Shown here in pieces: positions 16,104 through 33,263 of a DNA stretch of 64,000 bases. Origin of the DNA: Trichocoleus sp. FACHB-46 (GTDB taxonomy: Bacteria; Cyanobacteriota; Cyanobacteriia; FACHB-46). Every line of letters starts with the position of its first letter. Position 1 is the first letter of the stretch. The stretch is taken from the NCBI RefSeq assembly GCF_014695385.1, contig NZ_JACJOD010000011.1:1-64000 (forward strand). The letters are read 5' to 3'. The notes beneath the pieces were generated by a model that was given only the letters and a program-made list of their open reading frames with translations, was not told the origin of the DNA and ran no database searches. Position numbers and translations under genes: made by a program.

Positions 16104-19100
16104 TTATGCATGGCTCCCACTGCCTGCAATCAAAACTTCACCTTTTAGCATGCGTTGAGCGGCATCTAGTAAAGCTTCTTCTAAGTAAGGTTTGGTGAAG
16201 TAGCCCTTGGCACCGAGCTGGACAGCCATCTGTCTATGGCGATCAGCACCCCGTGAGGTGAGCATCGCGATCGGGATGTGGTTGAGGGTGGAATCCTTCT
16301 GAATGCGAGATAGCAGCTCTAGGCCGTCCATTCTAGGCATTTCAATGTCGCAGAACACCATATCGCAGGGCAAGCCAGAGCGCAGTTTTTCCCAAGCTTC
16401 TTGACCATCACGCGCTTGTTCAACTCGGTAACCCACTTTGTTGAACGTCATGGACAACAGCTCACGCACTGTAATCGAGTCATCCACAATCAGAACCGTC
16501 GGGTCAGTTTTGGCAACGGCTTCCGCTACAGGAGGTTCAGCGTTTTGATCCCATAGCGTCGTGCTAGCTTCTCGGCGAATCCGACCCATAGACAGGTCGA
16601 TCAGCTCTAAAACGTCCGCGATCGGCATAATCCGACCATCCCCTAGAACTGTCGCACCAGCAACCCCAATTGGTTTAGGGACAGGGCCTTCAAGTTGCTT
16701 AATTACAATTTCTTGCTCGCCCAAGACCTGATCGACCTGCAAAGCAATGAAGTTGCCAGCACTACGAAGCACCACAATGGAGACGATGTCATCTTCTTGG
16801 TTACCGCCGTAGACGCTACCACGACCGAGATAACGGTTGTATTTGAGAATGTCAGATAACGGTCGGAAGGGCAGCAGCAAATCGCGCCATAGAATACAGG
16901 GTTGTCCATCAGGATTAGCTTGAATCCGCTCCTTGGGCACATCTAGCATGTCTTCTACCCCATCCATCGGAAAGGCAATGCGAGCCCGATTACTGATGCA
17001 GCAGAGAGCTTTGGAAATGCTCAGGGTAAGGGGAAGGCGAATAGTAAACGTCGTTCCCTTCGCGACGGCAGAGTCAGTAGTGATGGCACCACGAATCTCA
17101 CCTAAGCTAGTGCGGACGACGTCCATGCCGACTCCACGGCCTGCGTAGTCAGTGACTTGATCCTTGGTCGTGAAACCGGGATGGAATAGTAAGTCATAAA
17201 CGTCCAAGCGCGAGAGAGTCCTGGCCTCTGCGGGCGTAACCAGACGTTTCTCGATCGCCTTTGTTTTCACTCGATCTGGATCAACTCCTGCCCCATCATC
17301 CGAGACAGAAATCACTGTTTGGTTCCCCTGGTGGAAGGCCCGGATCGTAATGCGACCGATAGGTGGCTTGCCTGCCGCTTGCCGTACATCTGGCGTTTCA
17401 ATCCCGTGGGCGATCGCGTTATTGACCAAGTGAGTCATGGGGTCATAAAGCTGCTCCAAAATCATCTTGTCGATTAAGGTTTCTCGACCTTCGACATGCA
17501 GCTCAGCCTGCTTGCCACACTTGAGGGCAATATCTCGCACTGCTCGCGGCAAGCGATCGGCAATTTGGGCGAAGGGAACCATTCGGGAGCGAGTCAGACC
17601 TTCTTGTAGTTGAGTCGTCACCTGCCGGAACATCCGAGTGACCTGATCGGTTTCATCCACGATGAATTCGATGTCAGAAGCAGACTCTCGAACTCGGACA
17701 ATCAACTCGATCATCTCTTGAGACAAGGTATGGAACCCAGTAAAGCGGTCCATCTCTAGGGCATCGAAGCTGGCTCCTGTGGAGTGGCTGTTCTGGGCAT
17801 CACCATTGGTACCATGTACCGGGGCATGATGACTTTGGCGGCTGGCTAAGAGTGAGCTTTCCAGCAGCGATCGCTCGTACAGGTCACGCATCCGCTGCCC
17901 AACATCGCTGAGTTGCTGCACTTGATAAAGCAAATTATCCAGGAACTGCCGCAACCGTTCTTGGTCTTGCTCCAAGCTATTCCGATTGACCACTAGTTCC
18001 CCAACCAAGTTGCTGAGGTTATCTAAGTGCTTAACCGGAACCCGCATCGTTTGCTCAGCAAAACCTGCTCCACCTCGACGCCCTGGCCGACGGTTAGCCT
18101 GAGGAGCAGCACCGCGGCTCGTTTTAACGGTTGGAGGACCACCCAAGGTTTTGTCAGCATCCTCTAGAAGCTTCTCTAAATCATCGAATTCACCGTCAAA
18201 AGCTCCAGCACCACTGGCAGTAGCACTAAACGCAGACGCTCCTAGCCCATTAACAGAACCAAAAGATTCTTCGTCCAGCAACGCTTCCAATCCTGAAAAG
18301 TCCGCGTCGTCTTTGCCTATCTCTGAGATGGAGGGTGGCGCAGCAAAATCATCCTCACTCAGTAAAGCTTCGAGGTCATCAAAGTTATCGAGAGAATCAG
18401 CGGGCGCTGTATTGCGCTCAAAGTTACCGTCAAAGCCATCTTCCTCACTAGCGATCGCTAGGAAGTCATCTAAGTCAGAGCCACCAACATCGGCAGTATC
18501 GACGCTAGCTTGAGCTTGACCCAAATCTAACCCATCGGAAAAATCATCCGTTGAATCTAGAGCAAATAAATCAAAGTCATTGAGATCTGCTGCTTCGGAA
18601 TCCTCTAGGCCAAAGCTGATATCCGTCACGTCCGCAGCTTCTGGAACTGCATCTGTTCCTAAATCAAACAGATCGAGATCAACCTCATCAAGGTCAAAGC
18701 TTGATTCTGTGGTCAGGTTTGGTGCTGATTCAGTGCTAGTAGTGACATCGTCTTCCAAGCCGAGTTCTGCATCAACCTCTGTAAAGGCATCTCCAAGCTC
18801 AGTCGTTTCCGCAACAGGTAAGCCAGAGAGGTCTAGCGCATCAAAGCCGAATTCATCAGTTGATTCAGTGGTGGGGGAGTCAGCAAAAAGATCGACCGCT
18901 TCCTCCTGTGCTGTATCGACGCTTTCCGTTTGGAAGAAGTCCCCAAACTCATCGCTGTTATCAGAGGCTAGGTCAGGGCCTACCTCAGAAGTGATAGCTG
19001 CATCAGCCTCATCTGCATCAAAGCCTTCAAGCCAACTTTCGGAATCTATGTTCTCAGAAATGCTGGCTTCGCTGAGGCTATCTGATGTTTGTTCGTCAAA

Positions 19101-22100
19101 CAGATCCACTTCACTGAGGCTATCTGACTCTTCTTCGTCAAACAAACTTGCTTCACTGAGGTTATCGGAGGTTTCTTCGCCATCGAATAAGCCTCCTAAC
19201 GCTAAGTCGTCGCCAAAATCTAGTTCGCTCTCAGCACCTAGAGATGGTTCTACAGGCGCTAGAGACTCGGTTAGATCAAGCTCAGAATCATCCAGTAAGC
19301 TATCGAATCCTAACTCGCTTTCGTCCAGGCTAGTTTCAGGAGTGTCTAAGTCAAAGGCGAAATCAGCCTCTGAAGATTCATCAAGCTCAACATTGGATAA
19401 AACATCAAGTTGAGTGTGATTGCTTTCAGAATCTAGGTTAAGAGCTAGTTCGTCGTCAAAATTCAACTCATCAGAAGTGTCTGCCACTGACTCAAAACTA
19501 AAGTCTTCAGTCGGTTCTGGGGCTTCAGTCGGTAAGCTATCTAAGGAGAAATCATCAAAGCTACCCAAGTCGAGAGCGATCGCCTCTACCCCTGCCTCAG
19601 GCTCCGAAGGCTCATCAAACAAGTCTCCTAGATCTGCTGCTGGAGTGAGTTCGTCACCAAAATCCAACTCATCCGAAGTGTCAGCCGCTGGCTCAAAACT
19701 AAAGTCTTCAGTTGCTTCGGGCACTGACGCAAAACTAAAGTCTTCAGTTGCTTCTGGGGCTTCAGTCGGCAAGCTATCTAACGAGAAATCATCAAAGCTA
19801 CCCAAGTCGAGAGCGATCGCCTCTACCTCAGGTTCTGAAGGCTCATCGAACAAGTCTCCTAGATCTGCTGCTGGAGTGAGTTCGTCGCCAAAATCCAACT
19901 CATCTGAAGTGTCAGCCGCTGGCTCAAAACTAAAGTCTTCAGGTGCTTCGGGCACTGACTCAAAACTAAAGTCTTCAGTTGGTTCTGGGACTTCAGTCGG
20001 TAAGCTATCTAACGAGAAATCATCAAAGCTACCCAAGTCGAGAGCGATCGCCTCTACCTCAGGTTCCGAAGGCTCATCGAACAAGTCTCCTAGATCTGCT
20101 GCTGGAGTGAGTTCGTCGCCAAAATCCAACTCATCTGAAGTGTCAACCGCTGACTCAAAACTAAAGTCTTCAAAGGCAGATGTTTCCTCAGTAGGCAAGC
20201 TATCTAGTAGCAATTCATTTGAGGGATCATTCAGCCCACCAAAGTCTGAGTTGGCATCTCTCGCCTCTAGAGACTCACTCATGAAGTCTTCTAAATCACC
20301 TAAATCAGCATTGGATTCTACTGTTTCCGGTGACAAGTCCTCATCAAAAAGCGAGGGTTCTGCCACTGTGGTTTCAGAAACTTCATTCAAGCTTGCGGCA
20401 GGCTCTGGCATCCAAGATTCATCAGCCTCATCAGCTCCCATGAGGTCAAAGTCGAGCTCGTCTGCGCTGGTGTTTAATTCGTCTGCATCAGTGGTGAGAT
20501 CAGCAAAATTAGCTTCTACCGAAAAGTCAGCTAGTGGATCGTCAGCGGAGCCACCTAAGTCAGCCGTTTCTTCTAGGTTTAGCGCTGCCAAATCGGTTTC
20601 GCCTGGTACGGCTTCAGGCCACAGGTCTGTAGCTTCAGAGCTGGCTAACTCAAAATCAAATTCTTCAGGAGTGACACCGAATTCGCTGGATTCGGTGAGG
20701 AGATCGGCTAGCTCGGCATCATCTGCAAAAGATTCTGCCAACCCAAGATCATCAACGCTTTCGGTAGCTGCAATTGGTGTAGCGAGTGATAGCTCCTCTA
20801 GATCAATCCCAGATGACAAATCGTCTCCCCAGAGGTCGTTAGTTTCATCACTGCTCAGGTCAAAGCCCAGATCGTCACTGCGATCGCTCAGCTCAGAGTC
20901 AGCCAATAAGTCTGCAAACTCGGCATCATCAGTAGGTTCTTCTAGGAGTAACGATTCGTCAAGCTCACTGTTGAGATCAGTGTCTGCTACCACCTCCTGG
21001 AGGTCTGTCTGATCGAAAGCTTCTGAACTCCACAGGTCTAAGGATTCATCTGCACCAAGAGCTAGGTTTAGCTCGTCGCTTGTATTGCGATCGCTAACCT
21101 CAGTCAACGACCAGTCAGATGAGGCGGCACTGTCGGTCAGTTCTTCTAACAGAAGCTCTTCATCAGCATCTGGAGCGAGAGTGAATGCCTCTTCAGAATT
21201 CTCAGTTTCTAGATCAAAATCAAGACTTTCTAACTGCTCAGCGATCGCAAAGGGATCTTCTCCGTCAGCTCTCGTTGCTTCAGGAGTCGTTAATAGATCC
21301 TCATTTAAATCTAAAGCGTCTAAGTTCCAACTCGCTTCAGGCTCAGAATTGCCACCTGTCAGTCCTTGTTCCTCCCAAGGATCGGCGATCGCAGCCACAG
21401 GCTCCTCGGAAGCCAGGTCTAGTACTGGTGTATTCGCATCAACATCAGGTTCATCTCCCTCGTTAGAGGAAGTGGCGAACAAATCATCTAAATCAGCTTC
21501 TGCTGACGTTTCCAAGGAAAAATCTAGGCTTTCTGGCTCAGCCGCTAAGTCTGCCTCTGCCAGTGATAGATCGAATGGAGTGTCATCTACCTCGCCCATG
21601 GGAGCGTCTAACCAAGAAGTCCCAGGCTCGGCTGAGTCGGTTGTCTCCTCTGACCAGAGGTCATCTGACACATTGTCTTGATCATCGCTGGCTACGAACA
21701 GGTCAGCTGCATCTAGAGAGGAAGGTTCCTCGGAGACACCAAATAAATCAGTCAGATCTGCCTCATCTTCAGCTAGAATCCCTGGTTCTAAATCGCTAGG
21801 AGATTCCTCACCAAACAGTCCAATAGATTCTGAACCCTCTAAAGCGGCCTCTAGCTCTGCATCAGGCTCAAAGGTTGGCTCAGCGCTGAAGAAATCAGGT
21901 TCGCTATCACCCAGCCCCTCAAGAGAGGTTTCTGGGGCGGGCTCATTGAAGAAATCAGTGAAATCATCTGAAATAGTCGCGTTAGTCAGCTCCTCAGAAG
22001 AAGTTTCTAGAGAGAGTAGCTCGCTTTCATCAGACTCAGTAAATAAGTCAGGGAACTCTCCCAACTCGTCAGAAGGAACCTCAACGACAATCTCATCAGC

Positions 22101-23780
22101 AACAACTTCAAATTCGGATAACTCAAAGCTTGACTCAGATAGTTCAAAGGCTAAGTTGTCTGCTGAGGTATCTATAGAGTCTTCTACTGCTTCTACACCG
22201 AGACTATTGAAAGCAGCATCGTCTGATTCAAGATCTCCGAAAAAGTCTAGATCAGGTTGCTCTTCAGCTTGGTCTTCAAAGGTGATCGCTGCCGCAGAAT
22301 CCAGTGAGGCATCAGTGAAATCTTCTAAGCCTTGGAAATCTAAAGATTCATCATTGAGCAAGTCATCACTGCCAAACAAGCTAGCGAGGTCATCTCCTCC
22401 CCTGGCCTTAGAACTTGAATTCCCAGAACTCTCTGCATCAAAAAGTAAATCTGAGAAATCATCTGAGTTGACATCGCTTTCTAGAGAACCATCTGCTGAC
22501 TCAGCAGTCTCTCTGATAATTTCTTCTTCCTGCCAAGTCACGCCTAAATCAAGAACTTCCCCTTCAAACAGATCGGCCAAGCTGTTTAGCTCCGCCATTC
22601 CTACCTCAGGGCCATTGCGATCGCCTGTAGCCTGCTCAGCCGTAACCAAGTCTGCGTTGAGGTCGGAGGATAAATCTAAACCGAGGTCTGCGTCGCTAGT
22701 GACTGCATCTGGTTCTAGGGCAGGGCTGCTAAACCAATCCTCAAGCCCATCTGACGGACTATCTTCAGTGAGGTCTACAGCAAAAATGTCATCAGCAGTA
22801 GGCTCTTCTGCCGTTTCAAATAAATCGAAGGCTTCAGTCAGAGACTCTTCCGGCTCATTAGTGAGTTCAAAGAGATCCCCAGCCAGAAGGTCATCAAATG
22901 TAGGTTCTGTTGCAGCTTCGGCGGCGGAAATAGGCACTAGAACGGTCAGAGCGTCCCCAGCTAAAATTGTCGCTGCTTGGTTAGCTAGAACCAACTCCTG
23001 TGCTTTTTTGATTTCTTTGATGACAATGGGAGCTAGAGTTCGGTAGGCATTATCAGGGCAGGCGATCGCTTGACGAGACACCTCAAGCAAGTTACACCAA
23101 TTCGGCAAATCGAATGGTTCACCTAGTTGACCCAAGCTACGGCAAAGGTCTTGCAGTTGTTTTCGATTCTCTGAGCTTTCCGACTGCTTGAACAACTGCA
23201 ACATCTCGCGTAAGCGGGTTGGCACATCGCTTTGAAAAAGCAATAGCAACGCACTCTCTTCTTGATGCAGAGGAGCCGCTGCAACTGGCGTTGGGATTGT
23301 TTCAACCACAACCGGGATAAAGCTAGACCCTTCTTCGACTGGAATTACACCGCCCGCTTGAGTGATCAGTCCTTCCAAGTGATTGGTGAGCTCGGTAAAG
23401 ATCGGCTCAATGCCTGACATGATACCGTTAGCAATATCTTCAGTCAGACCAAAAGGTCCTTGAAGTTGCTCTAGGAGTTCGTGCAGAGTATCGAACACCC
23501 TAAGAAACAAAGATTCTAATTTTTGATCAACTTTGATGGGGCACTCTTTTAAGAGTTTGAAGCAATCCTCTAGACGGTGCGAAACCTGCTGAATGCTATT
23601 GATTCCTAGCATGGCTGCTCCGCCTTTGACAGAGTGAGCCGCTCGGAAGACTTCATTCACCATTTCCGAGTCTTCGATGGTGCTTTGCAGATTCAGCAAA
23701 CCTTGCTCAATGGTGTTGAGGTGGTCTTTGGCCTCCTCAATGAAGTAACCCATGATCCGCTGCTGTTGTTCTGACTGCAT
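16104..23780 (-). CDS. hmpE: Giant CheA-type hybrid histidine kinase
   Basis: A 2558-residue kinase at the end of the chemotaxis-like operon, homologous to PixL/HmpE. An Hpt domain (about 1-130) has phospho-accepting His49 in AAHSVKGGAAML. A second helical module spans about 180-270. Residues from about 300 to 1850 form an extremely long acidic, Ser/Asp/Glu/Leu/Phe-rich low-complexity linker, including 77-residue near-identical tandem units. The CheA core follows: dimerisation helices from about 1885 (VKHLDNLSNLVGELVVNR), an ATPase with NNAIAHGIE, DDGAGVD and GRGVGMDVV, then a CheW-like domain to about 2410. The C-terminal receiver carries Asp2478 in FCDIEMPRMDG. It should take signals from HmpD through HmpC and phosphorylate HmpB and HmpA, steering type IV pilus motility. 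The linker is far longer than in CheA homologues I know. Confidence 0.93.
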   Translation of the reverse strand: MQSEQQQRIMGYFIEEAKDHLNTIEQGLLNLQSTIEDSEMVNEVFRAAHSVKGGAAMLGINSIQQVSHRLEDCFKLLKECPIKVDQKLESLFLRVFDTLHELLEQLQGPFGLTEDIANGIMSGIEPIFTELTNHLEGLITQAGGVIPVEEGSSFIPVVVETIPTPVAAAPLHQEESALLLLFQSDVPTRLREMLQLFKQSESSENRKQLQDLCRSLGQLGEPFDLPNWCNLLEVSRQAIACPDNAYRTLAPIVIKEIKKAQELVLANQAATILAGDALTVLVPISAAEAATEPTFDDLLAGDLFELTNEPEESLTEAFDLFETAEEPTADDIFAVDLTEDSPSDGLEDWFSSPALEPDAVTSDADLGLDLSSDLNADLVTAEQATGDRNGPEVGMAELNSLADLFEGEVLDLGVTWQEEEIIRETAESADGSLESDVNSDDFSDLLFDAESSGNSSSKARGGDDLASLFGSDDLLNDESLDFQGLEDFTDASLDSAAAITFEDQAEEQPDLDFFGDLESDDAAFNSLGVEAVEDSIDTSADNLAFELSESSFELSEFEVVADEIVVEVPSDELGEFPDLFTESDESELLSLETSSEELTNATISDDFTDFFNEPAPETSLEGLGDSEPDFFSAEPTFEPDAELEAALEGSESIGLFGEESPSDLEPGILAEDEADLTDLFGVSEEPSSLDAADLFVASDDQDNVSDDLWSEETTDSAEPGTSWLDAPMGEVDDTPFDLSLAEADLAAEPESLDFSLETSAEADLDDLFATSSNEGDEPDVDANTPVLDLASEEPVAAIADPWEEQGLTGGNSEPEASWNLDALDLNEDLLTTPEATRADGEDPFAIAEQLESLDFDLETENSEEAFTLAPDADEELLLEELTDSAASSDWSLTEVSDRNTSDELNLALGADESLDLWSSEAFDQTDLQEVVADTDLNSELDESLLLEEPTDDAEFADLLADSELSDRSDDLGFDLSSDETNDLWGDDLSSGIDLEELSLATPIAATESVDDLGLAESFADDAELADLLTESSEFGVTPEEFDFELASSEATDLWPEAVPGETDLAALNLEETADLGGSADDPLADFSVEANFADLTTDADELNTSADELDFDLMGADEADESWMPEPAASLNEVSETTVAEPSLFDEDLSPETVESNADLGDLEDFMSESLEARDANSDFGGLNDPSNELLLDSLPTEETSAFEDFSFESAVDTSDELDFGDELTPAADLGDLFDEPSEPEVEAIALDLGSFDDFSLDSLPTEVPEPTEDFSFESVPEAPEDFSFEPAADTSDELDFGDELTPAADLGDLFDEPSEPEVEAIALDLGSFDDFSLDSLPTEAPEATEDFSFASVPEATEDFSFEPAADTSDELDFGDELTPAADLGDLFDEPSEPEAGVEAIALDLGSFDDFSLDSLPTEAPEPTEDFSFESVADTSDELNFDDELALNLDSESNHTQLDVLSNVELDESSEADFAFDLDTPETSLDESELGFDSLLDDSELDLTESLAPVEPSLGAESELDFGDDLALGGLFDGEETSDNLSEASLFDEEESDSLSEVDLFDEQTSDSLSEASISENIDSESWLEGFDADEADAAITSEVGPDLASDNSDEFGDFFQTESVDTAQEEAVDLFADSPTTESTDEFGFDALDLSGLPVAETTELGDAFTEVDAELGLEDDVTTSTESAPNLTTESSFDLDEVDLDLFDLGTDAVPEAADVTDISFGLEDSEAADLNDFDLFALDSTDDFSDGLDLGQAQASVDTADVGGSDLDDFLAIASEEDGFDGNFERNTAPADSLDNFDDLEALLSEDDFAAPPSISEIGKDDADFSGLEALLDEESFGSVNGLGASAFSATASGAGAFDGEFDDLEKLLEDADKTLGGPPTVKTSRGAAPQANRRPGRRGGAGFAEQTMRVPVKHLDNLSNLVGELVVNRNSLEQDQERLRQFLDNLLYQVQQLSDVGQRMRDLYERSLLESSLLASRQSHHAPVHGTNGDAQNSHSTGASFDALEMDRFTGFHTLSQEMIELIVRVRESASDIEFIVDETDQVTRMFRQVTTQLQEGLTRSRMVPFAQIADRLPRAVRDIALKCGKQAELHVEGRETLIDKMILEQLYDPMTHLVNNAIAHGIETPDVRQAAGKPPIGRITIRAFHQGNQTVISVSDDGAGVDPDRVKTKAIEKRLVTPAEARTLSRLDVYDLLFHPGFTTKDQVTDYAGRGVGMDVVRTSLGEIRGAITTDSAVAKGTTFTIRLPLTLSISKALCCISNRARIAFPMDGVEDMLDVPKERIQANPDGQPCILWRDLLLPFRPLSDILKYNRYLGRGSVYGGNQEDDIVSIVVLRSAGNFIALQVDQVLGEQEIVIKQLEGPVPKPIGVAGATVLGDGRIMPIADVLELIDLSMGRIRREASTTLWDQNAEPPVAEAVAKTDPTVLIVDDSITVRELLSMTFNKVGYRVEQARDGQEAWEKLRSGLPCDMVFCDIEMPRMDGLELLSRIQKDSTLNHIPIAMLTSRGADRHRQMAVQLGAKGYFTKPYLEEALLDAAQRMLKGEVLIAGSGSHA
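19465..20180. repeat. In-frame 231-bp tandem repeats within hmpE
   Basis: The anchor string AAGTCTCCTAGATCTGCTGC starts at 19621, 19852 and 20083, an exact period of 231 bases (77 codons). A partial extra unit lies on the low-coordinate side. Encoded units contain TSDELDFGDELTPAADLG, LFDEPSEPE and LGSFDDFSLDSLP. Nucleotide identity between units is very high, so amplification is recent or maintained by gene conversion. Confidence 0.9.
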
Positions 23781-24068: not shown

Positions 24069-27026
24069 TTACTGCCGCTCCCCAGCCTCTACACGGAACC
24101 GTTCTACGGAAGTTAAGAGGTCGCGCGCAACTCCTACTAAGTTTTGTAGAGAACCCGAAACTCTTTGAGCTTCCTGAGAGGTTTCTTGTGCGGTTAATTC
24201 AACCGACTGCATTACCTGAGCGACCGCTCTCGAAGTTTCAGTCTGCTCTACCGTATCGGCAGTAATGGAACGGACAAGGGCATCAATGCGGTTAGACACT
24301 TGAATGATGTCTTCGAGCGATCGCTTCGCTTGTTCTGCTAAGCGAGTCCCCTCAATTACCTGTTGAGTTCCTTCTTCCATTGCTGTCATTACGGAGCCTG
24401 TCTCGCTCTGAATTTGCAGCACGATCTGCTCAATTTCCTTCGAAGCTTTCGCGGCCCTGTCTGCGAGCTGTCGGACTTCATCAGCCACAATGGCGAAACC
24501 ACGTCCAGCCTCACCTGCTCTCGCTGCCTCAATACTAGCGTTAAGTGCTAGCAGGTTGGTACGAGAAGCAATTTGGGAAATTAACGCCACAATTTTTGAG
24601 ATTTCTTGTGACGACTCGGCCAGCCGCTTTACCTTTCGGGTGGTTTCTGCCACTGTTTCGCGGATCTTGAGAATACCGGAAACCGTGCTTTCTACAGCCT
24701 CACCTCCTTTGAGCGCTGTCGCAGAGGCTGAGCGAGCCACCTCTTCCGCTTGGCGGGCACTTTCAGCTACCCGTTGAATGGAATCGGTCATGACCTGGAC
24801 AGAATTGAGGGTGACCGCTAACTCTTCTGCTTGCCGCAAAGCGTCAGACGATAAGCTGCGAGCGAACATTTCACTGTCGGAAGCGCCTTTGTTCACTTGT
24901 CGGGCAGCCAACTTCACCTGTTGCACAATCTCGCGCAGGTTTTGAATCGTTAAGTTAAACGAATCTGCCACTGCTCCCAGTACGTCAGCGGTGACTTCTG
25001 CCTGAACTGTTAAGTCGCCTCGCGCCGCCCCTTCCACGTCATCTAGGAGGCGAATTACTTGGCGTTGTAGGTCTTCTTTGGCTTGCTCTTGCTCTTCTGC
25101 CTTCCGTTGCGCCTCACTTGTAGTCGTGAGGATCACCCGTGCCATTTGGTTAAAGCCAGCGGCTAATTGGCCAAACTCATCTTCTGAATAGACCGAAGCC
25201 CGAGCATCTAAATTCCCTTGAGAGACCGCTTGAAATTGAGCTTGCAAGTTATCAGTTGCTCGCTGAATTTGATTGGCGGTTTTGCGCCCCATAAAGTAAG
25301 CGACACCACCGCTAGTGACACCAGCCACAACAGCCATGATTAGACCCGTTTGTCGCAAGCTAGCGATGACTTCAGGCCGCTTTTGCTCTACGGCACCCCG
25401 CGCTGCCACCCAACTAACAGTTGCCACTGCTAAAGCCGAAATCACTCCCACTGCACCCGCTGTGATCAAGTGCTTGGTTTTAAGCGAGGCGTTGTCTAAG
25501 AACGACAACATTCCCTGCTCGGAGGTGACGGTAGGCTCTACGTTGAGGCTATCACTTTGGGTGAAGATGGGGACTTGCTCAGAGTTGCCAGCAATCCCAA
25601 ATACTTCATCGTCTCGAATAATGGAGCGATCGCCGCTATCGCTGAAATCAACTTCTCCCATATTGGAAAAGCTCAGTCCTGCGCCTGCCTCTGGGGCAGC
25701 GCTCTCGTGGCCGCGACGGCTATTTAAGCCGGAAACTGTACCACCCATGCCTCCAAAAGCAGCTGAGCCGACCGAAGGACTAGTGAAACCCGCAGAGCTT
25801 TCAGAGATATCAAAGTCAGGTAGGTTGCCTAGATCATCAAATTCATCGAACTCATCTAGAAAGTCGATGCTGCTCTGGCGTCCACCTGCTTCACTAGAGG
25901 AGCCTCCGGTCACAGGAGATTCTGGATCTGAGAAGGCGTCGTCAAAGGTGCTAACGTTGTTGTCTTGGGCGTCAAAGCCGTTCCAGTTGGAAGATGAGAC
26001 GAAAGTTTGCTCATCTTGCTCGTAGTTGCTGGAGTTGTAGCCAGTTGAATCTAAGTCTGTGTAGCCAAAATTATCAGCATTAAAGTCATCTAGTTCCTCA
26101 TCAGCCATGAAGAGAGTTTCGTCTTCTCTCAAAGGAGGATTGGAGCTGTATGAACTATTGGCAGAAATGTTGCCGCCAGGGAAAGAGTCTAAAGCCGATG
26201 GGCGATCGCTAGGGAGGCTTTCCTCCTCAGCCGCATACAACTGAGCATCTGGACTCAGATCATCTTCTGGAAAATCTAGGGGTTGAAAGACATCGTCAAA
26301 CTGATCGAGCGATGCATCAAACTCACTCTGCCCCAAACTAGAGTCGTGGCCAAAGGGCGAAAACTCCTGGGAAGTCCCAGATTGAGATTGCGGATGAGTT
26401 CCTGGATCTTGAGCATCTAGATATTCGTCAAAGGCAAATGGATCGGCAGTATTGTCTAAAGGCTCAGAACTTGCATAAGAACTATTAGCAAATGGATCGG
26501 AGAACGGTGTTGCTGTCGCAGGCGTATCAACAGGCTCATCAAAAGCCATTGGCATTTCTGTCAAACCCAAGCCAGAGTCAAAATCGTCGAAGCTTTCTAA
26601 CTCAGCATTGTTAAAGTCAAAGGCGGGTTCTTCTTGGGCATTCCAGCTTTCTGCGGCTCCATAGTCAGAGCCACCTGAAAAACTATCTAGCTCTTGAACA
26701 TTAGGAGAGCCATCAGCCAAATTAGCTGCTGAAGCGGCTCCTGCATCCGCATCAGATTCGTTAGTGTAGGCCAATCCACTATTCGCGTAGTCAATAAATT
26801 CAGGATCAGAGGTCAAGCCCAGCACCCGTTGATATTGCTCGCGCGCCACATCATACTGCTGGAGTCCGTAGCAGTAAATATGACCCTTTAGAAGATGGAC
26901 ACTGGGGTCATCAGGAAAGTCTTGAGCCAGGCGATCGACAATCGCCGCTGCCTCTTCATAACTGCCCTGATAATATGCCTTCTGGGCTTGTTGATAGTCT
27001 TGCGCGTACTCAGTGCTGGATGCCAT
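24069..27026 (-). CDS. hmpD: Methyl-accepting chemotaxis protein with N-terminal TPR and no periplasmic domain
   Basis: A 985-residue receptor, homologous by position to PixJ/HmpD. Residues 1-90 contain TPR-like repeats ([23 protein letters not shown]). Residues 90-510 are an acidic low-complexity linker with FDDF/FDEFDDL motifs. Two hydrophobic segments follow at about 520-543 and 560-580, separated by only some 16 residues, so no periplasmic sensor fits between them. Two HAMP-like regions run about 580-710. The MCP signalling domain (about 740-980) has the conserved tip [20 protein letters not shown]. No GAF or bilin-binding domain is present, unlike PixJ1 of Synechocystis, so direct light sensing is not supported. 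It should pass signals to HmpC and HmpE. The gap to hmpE is 288 bases. Confidence 0.92.
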
Positions 27027-27151: not shown

Positions 27152-27682
27152 TCATGCTGCCCACCGCGCTGATCGAAGAATTGCAATTTGATCGAGTAGT
27201 CGGAGCAATTTGTCGTCTTTATTGTCCGTCATCCATTCGCCCCGCAAAAACGGAGCCATACTATCCGGAACATTCGCTGGCATCTGTACCTCGTCAATGT
27301 CTAGCCAATCCATGCCCACAATTCGATCAACTGCTAACCCTAACATGGTGTCTTGATCTTCGACTGCAATGACAGGAATCTCTGGTCTATCTGTATTGAG
27401 AGGATTAGCATCGCCTAGAAATTGGCCTAAATCAGCCACCCAAATAACGCGCCCACGTACATTCAGCGTACCCAAAAGCAAAGGGGAAACGTTCGGAATG
27501 GGAGTGATCCGATCCGGCGAAGGTGAAATAACTTCCCGAATTCCTGTAGCAGGTAGAGCAAACTCGTTGCCTGAAGATACATAGAATCTTAGGTGCAACT
27601 CACCTTCAGGACTTTCTAATTCCTGAAATTCTGGAGCTTGGTCTTGGCCTCTACCTGTTAAAAAATCTGGGTTCCCAACCAT
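27152..27682 (-). CDS. hmpC: CheW-like adaptor protein
   Basis: A 176-residue CheW-domain protein (PixI/HmpC position). After a 30-residue leader the domain begins with LRFYVSSGNEFALPATGIREVI. The family core follows: PNVSPLLLGTLNVRGRVIWVADLGQFLG, then VDRIVGMDWLDIDEV. It should link the MCP HmpD to the kinase HmpE in a membrane-associated array. It starts ten bases after the hmpB stop, so the two are translationally close, and it ends 125 bases before hmpD. Length is normal for cyanobacterial CheW proteins of this type. Confidence 0.92.
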   Translation of the reverse strand: MVGNPDFLTGRGQDQAPEFQELESPEGELHLRFYVSSGNEFALPATGIREVISPSPDRITPIPNVSPLLLGTLNVRGRVIWVADLGQFLGDANPLNTDRPEIPVIAVEDQDTMLGLAVDRIVGMDWLDIDEVQMPANVPDSMAPFLRGEWMTDNKDDKLLRLLDQIAILRSARWAA

Positions 27683-27692
27683 TCACGCCTAC

Positions 27693-28058
27693 CTATCCTC
27701 GTAGCAGCTGTTTGACTGTTCCAACTAACTCTGTGGGTTGAAAGGGCTTCGCAATATAAGCATCTGCACCTTGTTTCATGCCCCAGTAGCGATCGAACTC
27801 CTCACCTTTGGAAGAGCACATCACTACAGGCACATTTTGGGTTTTGGGATCTGCTTTCAAACGACGACAAACCTCATACCCGTTCATGCGAGGCATCACA
27901 ATATCCAAGACCACTAAGTCAGGGCAATGTGCTTGGATGCGCTCTAACGCCTCTACCCCATCGCTAGCTACAGTAACAGTTAGGCCACTTCCTTTGAGAA
28001 GGTCTGTGATCATCTCCCGTTGCGTGACACTATCTTCCACAACTAGAACTGTACTCAT
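27693..28058 (-). CDS. hmpB: CheY-like single-domain response regulator
   Basis: A 121-residue stand-alone receiver domain (PixH/HmpB position). I start at ATG 28058 (MSTVLVVEDS), where GGGTGG precedes and the receiver begins at once; an upstream ATG adds eight residues. Acidic pocket residues EDS lie at the N-terminus. The phospho-accepting Asp52 is in VLDIVMPRMNG, Ser in MCSSKG, and the conserved Lys in IAKPFQP. The likely role is output or phosphate sink for HmpE in the motility path. It sits between hmpA (144-base gap) and hmpC (10-base gap). Confidence 0.93.
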   Translation of the reverse strand: MSTVLVVEDSVTQREMITDLLKGSGLTVTVASDGVEALERIQAHCPDLVVLDIVMPRMNGYEVCRRLKADPKTQNVPVVMCSSKGEEFDRYWGMKQGADAYIAKPFQPTELVGTVKQLLRG

Positions 28059-28202
28059 AACCACCCTACCTGCTAACTGCAATGGTTAACGGGAAAGATC
28101 GACCGCGTACACTCTTAAACTTAATCTTTAGATTTGTGTTAGTCACCTTAATCCTTGATTTTTAGAATAATCACTAATTAATCACTAAAATACCCTCAAT
28201 GC

Positions 28203-29480
28203 TTAACTAAAAGGCGCTGAGGAAGCAGAAGCTGGATCGCCAAGGTCAATTTCTAACTCATCTTCTAGCGCATCAGCAAGCAGCCTGTCTGGTTTGGGGC
28301 GATCGGGGTCGCCTGAGCCAGCATACTTTTCTACTAGCATGAGTAACTCGTTTTCACCGAATGGTTTGGTCAGGTAGTCAGTCGCCCCGACCATACGAGC
28401 CTTGACCCGATCAATAAATCCGTCTTTCCCAGTCAACATCACAATAGGAGTTTGCCGGAAAGCCGTTGATTTGCGTAGCATGGCACAAATTTCGTAACCA
28501 TCCAACTCCGGCATAGCAATATCACAAAGAATTAGATCTGGCTTGAGTTGAAATACTAAGCTCAGTGCTTTAAGAGGATTCCCAATGGATGTAACTTCAT
28601 AACCATGTTGACTTAACATGTACTCCACAGTTTTACGAATGCTTGCCCCATCGTCGATACAAACCACTCTGGGAGTTCGAGCCATCTGTAGGGAAAACGG
28701 CTGCTTGCTAGCAATTGTTTCTTTGGAGATGGGATATAGCAGTTGTACTAGCCCCTGCTGCACGTAGGGGTAAATAGCTCTGGCAACAGTGAGAATATCT
28801 CGGTTGAGATAACGGGCCATCTGTCGGACTGAAGTTTTGCCATCTGCCCAGCGGTGCAGGCTGTTGAAGGCGTTTTCCGGCAAAGCCTCTTGTAGCTGCT
28901 TGGCATCAGCAATGATCGGACATTGATCAGGTGATTGAATGTGAGGGTGAAACTGTTTCCACTCTTGGACTTGCTTCATGATCTTGGCCACCAGCGGATT
29001 AATCTCCAGAGTGGTGAGTTGAGGAGACAAAGCGGAGCCAATTTCGAAAATAAATGAACCTTGATGGAGACTCAGCAAGTCGAAAAGTGTTTCATGCACC
29101 ATGCTCTGAATGATGCTACGTCCCTGAGCAGGTGTTAAAACATGATTTTCTAGCAGTGCCCATAAGTAGCCATACTCAGGGGCGTTGATCGCAGCAACCG
29201 AGGGGACGGTGACGTTATCGAGTGCGGCTTCTACTTTGTAGCGACGGAGATAGTCACGCAGGCGAAGTAAACTGTCATCCCCTTCTGCGGCATAGACAAT
29301 TTGGCCATTGAGAAAAAAGACAAACCAAGACTGGGTAGATAGCGATCGCCCGAGACGATCACTGCTGAGCAGGCTTGGCAGAGAACCATAGGCTTCAACA
29401 CAAAGCTCACCCGTTCTTTGACCTAGCTCAATCAGTTGTAGAATGCTGCGGATGTCTATCTCGTTTAACTTGCCTTGCAT
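28203..29480 (-). CDS. hmpA: PatA-type response regulator (PATAN/DUF4388 plus receiver)
   Basis: A 425-residue regulator homologous to PixG/HmpA, first gene of the minus-strand operon. Residues 1-250 form the PATAN (DUF4388) region: MQGKLNEIDIRSILQLIELG at the start, then a winged-helix-like segment (ADGKTSVRQMARYLNRDILTVARAIYPYV). A receiver domain spans about 270-390 with Asp320 in LCDIAMPELDG and Lys in LTKPFGENE. PATAN proteins are known in cyanobacteria for binding motility or filament partners such as the pilus motor region. The C-terminal 35 residues are acidic. The promoter for the whole operon should lie in the 1-kb divergent region upstream. Confidence 0.93.
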   Translation of the reverse strand: MQGKLNEIDIRSILQLIELGQRTGELCVEAYGSLPSLLSSDRLGRSLSTQSWFVFFLNGQIVYAAEGDDSLLRLRDYLRRYKVEAALDNVTVPSVAAINAPEYGYLWALLENHVLTPAQGRSIIQSMVHETLFDLLSLHQGSFIFEIGSALSPQLTTLEINPLVAKIMKQVQEWKQFHPHIQSPDQCPIIADAKQLQEALPENAFNSLHRWADGKTSVRQMARYLNRDILTVARAIYPYVQQGLVQLLYPISKETIASKQPFSLQMARTPRVVCIDDGASIRKTVEYMLSQHGYEVTSIGNPLKALSLVFQLKPDLILCDIAMPELDGYEICAMLRKSTAFRQTPIVMLTGKDGFIDRVKARMVGATDYLTKPFGENELLMLVEKYAGSGDPDRPKPDRLLADALEDELEIDLGDPASASSAPFS

Positions 29481-30480
29481 GATGCAGCTATGATGCTCTC
29501 CAAAGAACAGCTTCGACGCTTGTCAAGTGGAACCCTGACTCAAATCACTTCAAACTTATGGCTTACCGCAGGTGTTCCTACACAAAATAATAACGATCAG
29601 TAAGAAATTAAACTTGTGTTAAAACTTTTACCAACCTCCTACGAGTTTTCTTTTATGGCAGCCCGTTACTGATAGAACTAAACATTGAGCGATTTTCCTC
29701 GTTCGTAACATTAAAGATTTGCTTGTCAACAAACCAAAAGAATTTTTTGGTGGTACTTGGAAATGCCATAGAAGTTACTGCTTCGACATCACTACTAAAA
29801 ATGATGCTAAATTGTGGGGATGGGATGAGTCCACTGAAGTATATATTTCAGTTTAGTTTAAGACTTCAGCAGGTCTACTGGCATCTTCAATTCTTGGCCT
29901 GAAGCCAGAATCGGAACTGTGGATTCTAAATTTGTTGCTTTTACGATAAAAATTTGATTATTCAGATCCAATAGCTTTTTCTCACCGTAACGTGGGTTGT
30001 AGGGGTTAGTATGATGGCGCTAGGCTTTTACTTCGAGTGAATAGCTCTACTGCTTCATCTTTAATGGAGCTTTATATAGCGCTACTCACTGTAAGAGTCC
30101 TTAGTAAAGTCAATGTACATTGACTTCAGGTGGCAGCAAGTTGAGAGGCAAAACAGTCTAAGGATACGATGACGCTAAGACCGCTGCGTTTTCGGGTTGC
30201 AGAAGTGTTTGAGGATATGCCCCTCCCCAGAGACTGCTTGCAGCGAGCAACAGGTAAAAACCAATAAACTAGAGACGGTAGGAGCAGTAGACTCATCATG
30301 AACCTCTCATATTTATGTAGGTGGATTCAGTAGCGTTCCCAGCAGGAAGCCCAGTGTTAAAGAATATTGCTCAACCAATGTTCTCTTCTTAAACTGGGTT
30401 TAGCAGGGCGAATGAAACTGCTGGCAGAAGGCTTATCTGACACAAGGAACTGGGCATCGACACGGAAGAGGACGATTGGC
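29481..30480. promoter_or_regulatory. 1-kb divergent control region between hmpA and hmpF
   Basis: No convincing gene lies here. The stretch near 29570-29800 is AT-rich. A perfect 20-bp palindrome sits at 30107-30126. The region must hold the promoters for the hmpABCDE operon and hmpF, but I could not pick reliable -35/-10 boxes by eye. Confidence 0.55.
30107..30126. promoter_or_regulatory. Perfect 20-bp palindrome upstream of hmpF
   Basis: AAGTCAATGTACATTGACTT is identical to its reverse complement. It lies about 355 bases before the hmpF start and 627 bases before hmpA. Its size and symmetry fit an operator for a dimeric regulator. No second copy was noticed in the window. Binding is inferred only. 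Confidence 0.6.
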
Positions 30481-32235
30481 GTGCTGTATCTAGCAGAAGT
30501 ACAAAAAAAGACCGGATTCATTGGTAGTGGTAAGGCAGAGCTAAAGTTGCTGGCTTGTCAGCGCTCTGAGCAGAGTTGGGCTGCTGTCCCTGGGGAAGAA
30601 GTTATTCCTTCAGATGAGGCGAATAGCTTTAACGCAGGAGCCTTGGTACTAGCTGACTTGACTGCAAATAAGCAGGTGCAGCGGCTACAGGAAGCCTCCC
30701 GCCAGCTAGTGACTATTCTGCAAAATTTCTCTCGGCTGCAAGAAAAGTTTAAGACCCAGGAAGAAGAAATTGAGCAGTGGAAGCAGTCTCTGACTTATCA
30801 AAGCCAAGAGCTTAATCGCCGTGAAATGGAAATGGAAGCGCGGCGGGAGCAGCTTCAGCAAATAGAAGAAGATTTTGAGCAGCTAGAGCAGCAGCGCCAA
30901 GAAATTGAGCGATCGCGAGAAGAAGCCAACCGACTCCGGGAAGAATTAGAGCGCCGCAACCAGGAACTGGAGGGAGCTTGGGCTCACCTACATGGTGAAA
31001 TGCGACGCTTAGAGGAACGCCAATCCGAGATTCAGCAATCGGCGGTTCTAGATGATGAACAAGCCGGTAAAATTCAGGATCTATTGAACCGCTTATCTGG
31101 CTCCGTAGCTCCCACCGAATCGGCTCGTGAGCAACTGAATTTAGCCGTTGAAATCATCAATGGCCAGCAAAACATTCTGACCGAACATTGGCAGCGACTA
31201 GAACAACAACGGGCCAGCGCTCAACAGCTACAACAAGAGGTTGATCGTCAAGCCCAAGATCTACAAAATCGCTGGAATGAGTGGCAACAAGCCCAGACTT
31301 CTTTGGAGCAGGCCAAAGCTGAGTTGAAAGCACAGCAAAATGCTCTAAACCTCAAGCAAGACTATGCCCAGACGCTAGGTCTGCAACTGCAAAACCAGGA
31401 AGAGCTCCATCAGCAACTGTATCGGCTATCGGAAACTTCTGACAAAGTTAAGATTAGCCCTAAAGTTGACGTTGAAGCGCTAGAAACGATGCCGCTGGGC
31501 GAGCTTCAAGGAGTCCTTCAAGATCTCCAGCGTGACTGGGAAAAAATCCTCCGTTTCGTTAATGACCAGGAAGAAGAGTTAGGTTTTCAACAGCAAACGA
31601 TTGAAGAGGTGCAAGCGCAGATTCAGCAGGCCAGCGAGTATGACCGTCTCCGGCTAGAGACCGAGCTAGCGGATGAGCAAGACCGCTATCAAATGCTGAA
31701 CGAAACCTTGGTGGGACAACGACGCAACCTCAAGGAACGGGAAGAAATTCTAGCGCAACACCAAGCTGTTTTACTGCGACGAGAAGGCAAATCAGAAGCG
31801 GTGAAACAAGAGAGTGAAATTGACCTAGCACCTGCCTTAATTCAGATCGAAAACATTAAGCAGCAGCAAGCGGAAGAACTGCAAAAGCTAGAAAACCAGA
31901 TTGAACAAATGCGGGGGGCGATTCAACAAGCCCAAAGCATGGTCGATCATCAATCCAATGAGCAGACCCAGAAACAGAACGAGCTGAAGCAGCTAGAGCA
32001 AAACCTGCAAACTCAGCGAGCTAATTTGGCGGAGCTGTCGGGTAAGGTCAGTCTCTATCAAGAGATGATGCAACCCGTGCAAGACCATGTAGATGGAGTA
32101 CGGCAAAAGCTGGAAGCGATCGCGGGTGTCTTGAACCAAGTGCAAGAAGCCAGTGATTACCAACTGCAAGCGATCGCCGAAATGCGACAAGTGCTAGTCG
32201 GCTTGATGAATACGCCAGAGTTAGCAGCCCCTTAG
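30481..32235 (+). CDS. hmpF: Pilus motility coiled-coil protein HmpF
   Basis: A 584-residue protein. Its start is GTG 30481 (VLYLAEVQKKTGFIGSGKAELKLLACQRSEQSW), supported by AGAGGA nine bases upstream and by this being the usual HmpF N-terminus. Longer frames upstream start from unlikely codons. After about 90 residues of globular N-terminus, nearly the whole protein is Gln/Glu-rich heptad coiled coil (about 95-560). In Nostoc, HmpF localises dynamically at cell poles and is needed for type IV pilus activity and directional movement, working with the Hmp kinase system. Its divergent position next to hmpA-E fits that role here. No membrane segment is seen. Confidence 0.88.
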   Translation: MLYLAEVQKKTGFIGSGKAELKLLACQRSEQSWAAVPGEEVIPSDEANSFNAGALVLADLTANKQVQRLQEASRQLVTILQNFSRLQEKFKTQEEEIEQWKQSLTYQSQELNRREMEMEARREQLQQIEEDFEQLEQQRQEIERSREEANRLREELERRNQELEGAWAHLHGEMRRLEERQSEIQQSAVLDDEQAGKIQDLLNRLSGSVAPTESAREQLNLAVEIINGQQNILTEHWQRLEQQRASAQQLQQEVDRQAQDLQNRWNEWQQAQTSLEQAKAELKAQQNALNLKQDYAQTLGLQLQNQEELHQQLYRLSETSDKVKISPKVDVEALETMPLGELQGVLQDLQRDWEKILRFVNDQEEELGFQQQTIEEVQAQIQQASEYDRLRLETELADEQDRYQMLNETLVGQRRNLKEREEILAQHQAVLLRREGKSEAVKQESEIDLAPALIQIENIKQQQAEELQKLENQIEQMRGAIQQAQSMVDHQSNEQTQKQNELKQLEQNLQTQRANLAELSGKVSLYQEMMQPVQDHVDGVRQKLEAIAGVLNQVQEASDYQLQAIAEMRQVLVGLMNTPELAAP

Positions 32236-32279: not shown

Positions 32280-33263
32280 CTAAAGCTGTTTTAGCCAAAT
32301 CCATTCACCTTCTACTACCGCGATCGCCCCTCCCGGAAACGGATCAGTTTGCGATCGGTTGGGGGCTGTAATCAGGTTGGTCACCTTTTCAATTTGTTCA
32401 AAATTAAGCGCCTTGGTCAGGGCTGCTTGGAGAAACTGCCGAACTACTCGTCTTTGCAGCGCGAGAGGAGCAGACCCTAGCACCAATCGATTCAAACCTC
32501 TTTGAGAGGGGTGTTGGGCTTGCTGGCGTAGCACGATCGCAGCTTGCTCCAAATATTCCACATCTGCCTGGAGCAACTCGGTCGCTTGTGCCAAAGCTTT
32601 TTCTACTTGCGGATTAAAGTGCTGCTGTAAGTAAGGCAGTAATTCTTGCCGAATCCGATTGCGGGCATACTTCAAATCCTGATTGGTCGAGTCTTCCCAA
32701 ACGGGTAAGTTAAACACTTGGCAGAATTGAGCAGTTTCTGGCCTCGTCAAATTTAGTAGAGGCCGCACCAGCATAATTTCTGGGCTTAAGGCTCGTTGCC
32801 AAGTCAAAGCTTGCAACCCATCGGCTCCGCTGCCCCGCATCAAGTTGTAGAGCAACGTTTCAGCGCGATCGCTAGCAGTGTGACCTGTCACTAAGCACTG
32901 GTAGGCATGAGCCTGAGCAATTTCGGTGAGTGCTTGATAGCGCCAGGCTCTTGCAGCTGCTTCGCTGGGTAAAGCTTGAGTGGCAGTACGTTGATAAAAC
33001 TCAACTTGCCAACTTTGCGCTAACTGTTGCACATGAGCAGCATTCGCCTCTGAGTCGGCTCGCCAGCGGTGGTCACAGTGCGCGATCGCGACCTGCCAAT
33101 TCCACTTGGGCTGCAAGTCTAAAAGTAATTTTGCTAGGCAGAGCGAATCTTGCCCGCCAGAGACGGCAATTAATAACCGCCGTTGTCGGGGTAGTAACTG
33201 CCGCGATCGCAGAGTTTGATGAACTTTGGCATGTAGAGGTGTCCAAGTAGAAGGAGCACTCAT
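32280..33263 (-). CDS. tilS: tRNA(Ile)-lysidine synthetase
   Basis: A 327-residue enzyme that modifies C34 of the CAU-anticodon isoleucine tRNA to lysidine, changing its reading to AUA. The PP-loop ATPase motif AVSGGQDSLCLAKLL (about 33-47) and HCDHRW are clear. So are TGHTASDRAETLLYNLMRGSGADGL and RNRIRQELLPYL. The length suits the shorter cyanobacterial/Aquifex-type enzyme lacking the long C-terminal domains. It converges with hmpF, with about 45 bases between the stops, and is upstream of and parallel to ccsA. Start ATG 33263 opens directly on MSAPSTWTPLHAKVH. Confidence 0.95.
   Translation of the reverse strand: MSAPSTWTPLHAKVHQTLRSRQLLPRQRRLLIAVSGGQDSLCLAKLLLDLQPKWNWQVAIAHCDHRWRADSEANAAHVQQLAQSWQVEFYQRTATQALPSEAAARAWRYQALTEIAQAHAYQCLVTGHTASDRAETLLYNLMRGSGADGLQALTWQRALSPEIMLVRPLLNLTRPETAQFCQVFNLPVWEDSTNQDLKYARNRIRQELLPYLQQHFNPQVEKALAQATELLQADVEYLEQAAIVLRQQAQHPSQRGLNRLVLGSAPLALQRRVVRQFLQAALTKALNFEQIEKVTNLITAPNRSQTDPFPGGAIAVVEGEWIWLKQL

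Follow-up and report, generated by a model that had tools for sequence, protein, structure and literature searches.

HmpD of a cyanobacterial Hmp/Pil operon: a pilus-taxis receptor without a recognizable sensor, and a tentative case for cytoplasmic docking

How is a chemotaxis receptor switched that appears to carry no sensor? The question is raised by a methyl-accepting chemotaxis protein encoded in the 64,000-nucleotide stretch of Trichocoleus sp. FACHB-46 DNA analysed here (denoted the window). From gene order and the neighbouring HmpF, the gene is, close to certainly, hmpD (pilJ), the receptor gene of the Hmp/Pil (type 1) pilus-taxis operon (Table 1). That HmpD/PilJ lacks a photosensor domain and that its input is unknown has already been published in the sources consulted (PMC5812497, PMC7690835), and the sensor-less state of HmpD is recognised in reviews; what is added here is a conserved groove in the TPR domain, two short linker motifs, kinase-dead remnants of the operon and a picocyanobacterial TPR. 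The parts of the literature searched hold no description of the TPR, (D/N)PF or FDxFDDL elements of HmpD, which may stand in Risser 2014, Cho 2017, Harwood 2021, Wuichet and Zhulin 2003 or Chung 2001.

Like a type 1 Hmp/Pil receptor, the protein combines an MCP signalling domain with HAMP (Pfam), a place in an hmpA-B-C-D-E operon with adjacent hmpF, and the absence of a photosensor domain. The order hmpF followed divergently by hmpA-B-C-D-E recurs in most named cyanobacterial loci with flanks long enough to judge (80 loci listed, from public genomes); exceptions are a few loci in which hmpE is split, cut off or more distant, and locus L060, where hmpF lies downstream of hmpE. The TPR is present in 119 of the 120 genomes with HmpF, and HmpF in 119 of the 124 genomes with the TPR. 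The NCBIfam matches included no HmpD-specific model; the orthology rests on gene order and on named close relatives from Rivularia, Plectonema and Richelia (L114, L115 and L117). The same operon has been described as Hmp of Nostoc punctiforme and as the pil/tax3 genes of Synechocystis, with HmpD/PilJ as receptor (PMC6495340, PMC7076178, PMC12288463). The Hmp (Pil) system is widespread and steers pilus-driven movement in cyanobacteria.

Several features of the neighbouring genes deserve mention. Because the NF038350 match begins at residue 40, the true start of hmpF is probably near 30480. The gene at 32280-33263 of the window, presumably tilS, adjoins hmpF; TilS-like frames also occur close to the reduced hmpC-D-E operon and the f2 TPR genes described below. 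DUF4388 of HmpA we take to be PATAN. Within its linker, HmpE contains near-identical tandem stretches; among 50 HmpE sequences compared, the length ranges from 1458 to 2629 aa, and residues 170-280 and 391-420 are conserved without a domain assignment. Six CheR matches are found elsewhere in the Trichocoleus genome. Methylation was rejected as a core part of the system on the ground of a control, Synechococcus elongatus, which matches MCP but has no match to the CheR family.

Table 1. Features of the hmp locus in the window and of the HmpD protein.
Feature	Position	Strand	Basis
hmpE, CheA of 2558 aa: Hpt, ~1600-aa acidic linker, H-kinase_dim, HATPase, CheW, REC	16104..23780	(-)	Pfam, synteny
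hmpD/pilJ, methyl-accepting chemotaxis protein, 985 aa	24069..27026	(-)	ORF, Pfam, synteny
MCP signalling domain, residues 762-942	24201..24743	(-)	Pfam
Second segment taken as HAMP-like by resemblance, residues 651-700	24927..25076	(-)	4.08 of 4.32 bits
HAMP 1, residues 584-630	25137..25277	(-)	Pfam
Membrane helix 2, about residues 559-581, after 16-residue connector	25284..25352	(-)	AF2 (helix 551-602), hydropathy
Membrane helix 1, residues 515-546	25389..25484	(-)	AF2, hydropathy
Conserved island with FDEFDDL, residues 388-407	25806..25865	(-)	Alignment, AF2, motif counts
Acidic linker, predicted disordered, residues 104-507	25506..26717	(-)	AF2 pLDDT below 50 over 103-390 and 401-502; composition
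DPF motif 2, residues 195-197	26436..26444	(-)	Alignment, family-wide motif count
DPF motif 1, residues 177-179	26490..26498	(-)	Alignment, family-wide motif count
TPR, residues 4-103, 2.5 repeats	26718..27017	(-)	Pfam, AF2, fold searches, conservation
hmpC, CheW	27152..27682	(-)	Pfam, synteny
hmpB, CheY-like REC	27693..28082	(-)	Pfam, synteny
hmpA, DUF4388 + REC	28203..29480	(-)	Pfam, synteny
hmpF, divergent	30367..32235	(+)	NCBIfam NF038350, 756 bits vs cut-off 200

To survey the family, a TPR profile of 48 rows was run against 386 genomes of the phylum and yielded 124 strong matches (E≤2.4e-23). All but one of the corresponding frames (G021) were taken whole, and 120 of these 123 are complete receptors with MCP and HAMP; the remaining three (G075, G250 and G390) are not. 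Conservation figures from the 120 homologues are less biased than those from the 80 named loci, which were found with patterns including DEFDEFDD, so that conservation of the FDEFDDL island is inflated in their alignments. From a set of 110 loci, 11 without a full-span frame were dropped, and an identity ceiling of 85% left 75 of 100 rows.

We searched HmpD for a sensor domain at the level of both sequence and predicted structure. Pfam assigned the TPR (residues 11-71), HAMP and MCPsignal domains and returned no GAF domain and nothing convincing within residues 90-510 up to E=1; the remaining matches were below cut-off (E of 0.25 or worse) and lay outside this region. In the AlphaFold2 model, computed with 75 homologues, the TPR helices (residues 8-103) have pLDDT values of 95-98, the linker is of low confidence, and the two membrane helices lead into HAMP and the long receptor coil; there was no extra domain, and the best fold matches of the model were receptors. 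Only 16 residues separate the two membrane helices of this HmpD, which leaves no room for a ligand domain outside the membrane; across the homologues, the membrane cores lie 4-57 residues apart (median 21). No GAF or PAS domain is inserted further along, because the stretch from HAMP segment to coil is 39-40 residues long in 120 of 120 sequences. A Pfam scan of N-terminal regions, which covered 54 of the 120 homologues, gave TPR-type families and no sensor domain; Alkyl_sulf_dimr was matched in three regions, and pentapeptide repeats, UGSC and Pam17 each in a single region. Judged from these sequences, the lack of a sensor is the rule across the HmpD family and not peculiar to this window. A first-pass annotation made from the DNA alone had described the same anatomy (an MCP fronted by a TPR and an acidic linker of 400 residues, with about 16 residues between the two membrane segments), had held that no outside ligand domain fits and that GAF is absent, and had proposed a structure prediction of residues 1-100 and 500-600 and named a sensor domain in residues 90-510, sought by profile search, as counter-evidence; its description was borne out in each of these respects. 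In a 1391-aa HmpD frame (L196, from G069) the linker holds pentapeptide-like repeats, and we take the single Pfam Pentapeptide match in the A3 scan to be this frame.

The TPR domain, when modelled alone (mean pLDDT of 93), consists of helix-turn-helix repeats with the TPR fold and superposes on the peptide-binding TPRs of SycD, Tah1 and CHIP; its best fold match is 2vgx_B (Z of 16.3, rmsd of 1.3 over 89 residues). FimV is absent among the structural neighbours listed, which excludes nothing. Among the 120 homologues Tyr11 is conserved in 117, Tyr18 in 118, Leu45 in 120 and His49 in 118, positions that we assume to face the ligand groove and to be usually variable. As a class, the groove positions are more conserved than the other non-structural positions at p=0.054. 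The domain is itself acidic (median net charge of -9), and binding of the TPR to its own acidic linker is therefore unlikely.

The linker of HmpD is rich in acidic residues (D+E 21%, K+R 1.7%), and in the complete homologues it spans 161-799 aa with 16-36% D+E. Two types of short motif recur within it. (D/N)PF is found in the linkers of 102 of the 120 homologues, compared with 30.4 expected from shuffles, and Pro196 of the second DPF motif is nearly invariant in alignments A1 and A3. The strict FDxFDDL-type pattern occurs in 61 of 120 (0.8 expected from shuffles); the island that carries it contains the only helix predicted by AlphaFold2 in the linker (residues 392-401), and a search of the genome with the codon pattern for EFDxFDDL matched a single site, in hmpD. 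A relaxed pattern is present in 72 of 120, with 13 changes on the tree versus 37.6 in shuffles. The strict pattern is missing in 59 homologues, including all 14 f28, 6 f32 and 5 f36 genomes and also f31, and the core mechanism therefore cannot depend on it; on the strict and relaxed counts and the 13 changes, FDxFDDL was rejected as a universal element.

Motifs common to the linkers of receptor and kinase had also been suggested by the first-pass annotation. This holds at the level of motif type: words of the form (F/L)(D/E)(D/E)(F/L) are enriched over shuffles in both the HmpD linker (5 versus 0.36) and the HmpE linker (13 versus 5.7), and EFDDL and SFDDF are present in both. It does not extend to the sequence as such, as common 5-mers do not exceed chance (5 versus 2.8 in shuffles, p=0.17), there is no common 6-mer, and FDEFDDL is absent from the HmpE linker. 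Homology of the two linkers is accordingly unsupported.

Natural deletions show which parts of HmpD are retained when signalling components are lost. Two genomes of one genus in family f29 (G075 and G250), which we take for Nostocaceae, carry a reduced hmpC-hmpD-hmpE operon (L157:4688-8216 and L158:4588-8151, respectively). Their HmpD proteins of 487 and 491 aa, located between HmpC and an HmpE remnant of 488 and 494 aa, keep the TPR, FDEFDDL and the membrane hairpin, whereas both HAMP segments are gone and the tip is changed. The HmpE remnants are without Hpt and receiver and have lost motifs that we presume to be the N, D and G boxes. There is no HmpA or HmpB in the locus examined, and neither HmpF over cut-off nor another MCP in the two genomes; both have strong PilB-family matches, a term that here denotes matches below the curated cut-off, since that of TIGR02538 was reached in 0 of 386 genomes. 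Comparison of G075 with G250 yielded omega values of 0.31 for HmpD, 0.37 for HmpE and 0.45 for HmpC, versus 0.017 for an FtsH-like neighbour. The reduced operon is thus under purifying selection, constrained though loosely; as its omega of 0.3-0.45 is far above that of FtsH, the remnants may instead represent slow decay.

Receptor-less relatives of the TPR were detected in picocyanobacteria-like (f2) genomes, 14 of 57 of which match the profile of the HmpD TPR (E≤1e-8); 13 of the 14 are without MCP (these three counts are hand tallies from listings), strong PilB-family matches are present in every one of the 14, and none has HmpF over cut-off. The frames that were read measure 252-395 aa, apart from one of 625 aa in G346, and DPF motifs are present in two of the three that were checked. 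A reverse search with one f2 TPR protein gave a hit in one of eight genomes, HmpD of the Trichocoleus genome, at an E of 8e-5, and by sequence the relation to HmpD is best regarded as remote. Examples lie at L278:8903-9700, L281:8821-10005 and L282:9546-10301, beside what are presumably an RNase J-like and an aspartate kinase-like gene. Other arrangements of the domain were also noted: a 359-aa remnant, not near any hmp genes, that combines an HmpD-type TPR with a degenerate piece of an MCP (L284:1085-2161, G023); a pair of identical 113-aa frames that consist of the TPR alone and are separated by 11.6 kb (L156:2830-3168 and 14477-14815); and an HmpD-type TPR fused to a membrane fusion protein, presumably HlyD-like (L151:767-2518).

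The TPR also fronts receptors that do have sensors. A second taxis cluster of the Trichocoleus genome (L291:4588-11946, contig C7 of G000), with CheA, CheW and two receivers, encodes a receptor (L291:7585-10440) that resembles HmpD in its N-terminal TPR, short hairpin, HAMP, HAMP2-like segment and tip; over residues 639-980, which run from the HAMP2-like segment through the tip, the two are 48% identical. It differs in its short linker and in the two PAS domains that separate its HAMP segments. The short hairpin is therefore not special to HmpD. In three f24 genomes, a TPR-fronted receptor with an acidic linker has ~300 residues, read by eye from the sequence, between its membrane segments (L153:1570-4995, L154:2235-5759 and L155:2351-5659). 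TPR-fronting accordingly accompanies several pilus-type receptors, whatever their sensor. These findings split the first-pass suggestion that input enters through the TPR or the linker: strong conservation, which such input would need, is seen in the TPR and in two linker motifs, but because the TPR also occurs on receptors with PAS or extracytoplasmic regions it is not evidently a replacement sensor.

We tentatively propose, short of calling it probable, that HmpD, as receptor of the Hmp/Pil pilus-taxis array, works as a cytoplasmic docking hub anchored in the membrane, a role that the sequence favours. From front to tip, the sequence shows an acidic TPR with a conserved groove, a motif-bearing linker, a featureless anchor of two membrane helices, a pair of HAMP-type relays and a canonical tip for the control of CheA. 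At the pilus base or the cell pole, partner proteins would bind the groove and the linker motifs; binding would position the array and, via HAMP1 and the almost invariant HAMP2-like segment, set the activity of HmpE, which would act through HmpA/HmpB on HmpF and the pilus motors. The Hmp system has been reported to control HmpF at the leading pole, the uncoupler CCCP and light to alter HmpF localisation, and Hmp has been proposed to sense PMF (PMC9239167, PMC12288463). With docking as the input, uncoupler and light would act on HmpF indirectly, pilus or energy state being reported through a partner. Conservation, the lack of a sensor and the retention of TPR, FDEFDDL and hairpin after kinase loss speak for docking, as do the likeness of the TPR model to peptide-binding TPRs and the HmpD-like TPR of f2 genomes. 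Against it stand the TPR of sensor-bearing receptors, which suggests that the domain may only localise; the p value of the groove class; the homologues without FDxFDDL; the remoteness of the picocyanobacterial TPR; and published work that favours proton motive force as the signal.

The same evidence bears on a bolder and doubtful extension, namely that the N-terminal module (TPR groove and linker motifs) is a pilus/polarity docking platform separable from chemotaxis signalling. It would survive in receptor-less picocyanobacteria-like genomes and, in the two Nostocaceae-type genomes, in a pseudo-array under selection that is made up of CheW, a receptor lacking HAMP and a dead CheA. If true, such a pseudo-array would amount to a chemosensory array maintained for its structure and not for signalling.

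A rather unlikely rival is that the membrane hairpin and HAMP themselves sense proton motive force or membrane potential, the TPR and linker serving only for localisation. It draws on the published CCCP and light effects and PMF proposal, on the finding of no other sensor in HmpD by Pfam or AlphaFold2, and on the HAMP2-like segment, the most conserved of six segments compared (the kinase-control tip has 3.92 bits). The membrane segments themselves argue the other way. Their cores consist mostly of Ala, Gly, Val, Leu and Thr, and their sequence is poorly conserved except for small residues; no protonatable residue is conserved, an ionisable one being present in only 2 (TM1) and 5 (TM2) of 120 homologues, and an intramembrane charged residue for PMF sensing was rejected on this basis. 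In addition, the remnants retain the hairpin, yet have lost both HAMPs.

It is unlikely that the TPR and linker serve for localisation or spacing only, with HmpD keeping HmpE constitutive and regulation acting downstream or on HmpE/HmpF. The wide range of linker length, the TPR on receptors with other sensors and the S. elongatus control, by which methylation need not be core, speak for such a role; the nearly invariant HAMP2-like segment and tip, and the conservation of groove and motifs as sequence and not just as length, speak against it. We consider it improbable that HmpD has no input of its own and is a structural array member switched by sensor-bearing neighbours such as the PAS-containing paralogue: the identity of the two signalling regions would suit this, but the paralogue belongs to a separate cluster that includes CheA, CheW and two receivers. 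A sensor domain hidden within residues 90-510 can practically be dismissed, as Pfam, NCBIfam, AlphaFold2 (75 sequences) and Pfam on 54 homologues all failed to reveal one.

These data direct attention to the conserved groove of the TPR and to a pair of short linear motifs, not to the cell exterior or a chromophore domain. Groove and motifs are each open to test by a few point mutations, and the kinase-dead remnants constitute a natural experiment on receptor roles besides signalling.

Among known systems, PilJ of Pseudomonas aeruginosa is likewise the receptor of a pilus system, Chp, with two receivers and a long CheA. Its periplasmic region is said to read PilA; none fits in HmpD, where the loop is 16 aa long (4-57 in 120 homologues). 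PixJ1 (tax1) shares with HmpD two membrane segments, an MCP module and T4P control, but has two GAF domains, one of them bilin-binding (PMC5812497), whereas HmpD has nothing between its HAMP segments and an insert is lacking in 120 of 120 homologues. PixJ, to which the first-pass annotation had compared the receptor, is thus the wrong counterpart, since the operon identifies it as HmpD/PilJ. The match is to HmpD of Nostoc punctiforme and PilJ (Ctr1, Slr1044) of Synechocystis tax3, the MCP encoded with CheA, CheW, CheY, PATAN-REC and HmpF in the hmpA-F / pilG-H-I-J genes and likewise devoid of a photosensor domain (PMC6495340, PMC7076178, PMC5812497, PMC7690835, PMC12288463). The likeness to FimV/HubP we regard as analogy only, a resemblance of type and not homology. 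FimV is not known to have an MCP domain. It further differs from HmpD in its periplasmic LysM, single membrane segment and three TPRs, but like HmpD it is membrane-anchored, with an acidic cytoplasmic TPR region for docking that links T4P and chemosensory systems (PMC7033161).
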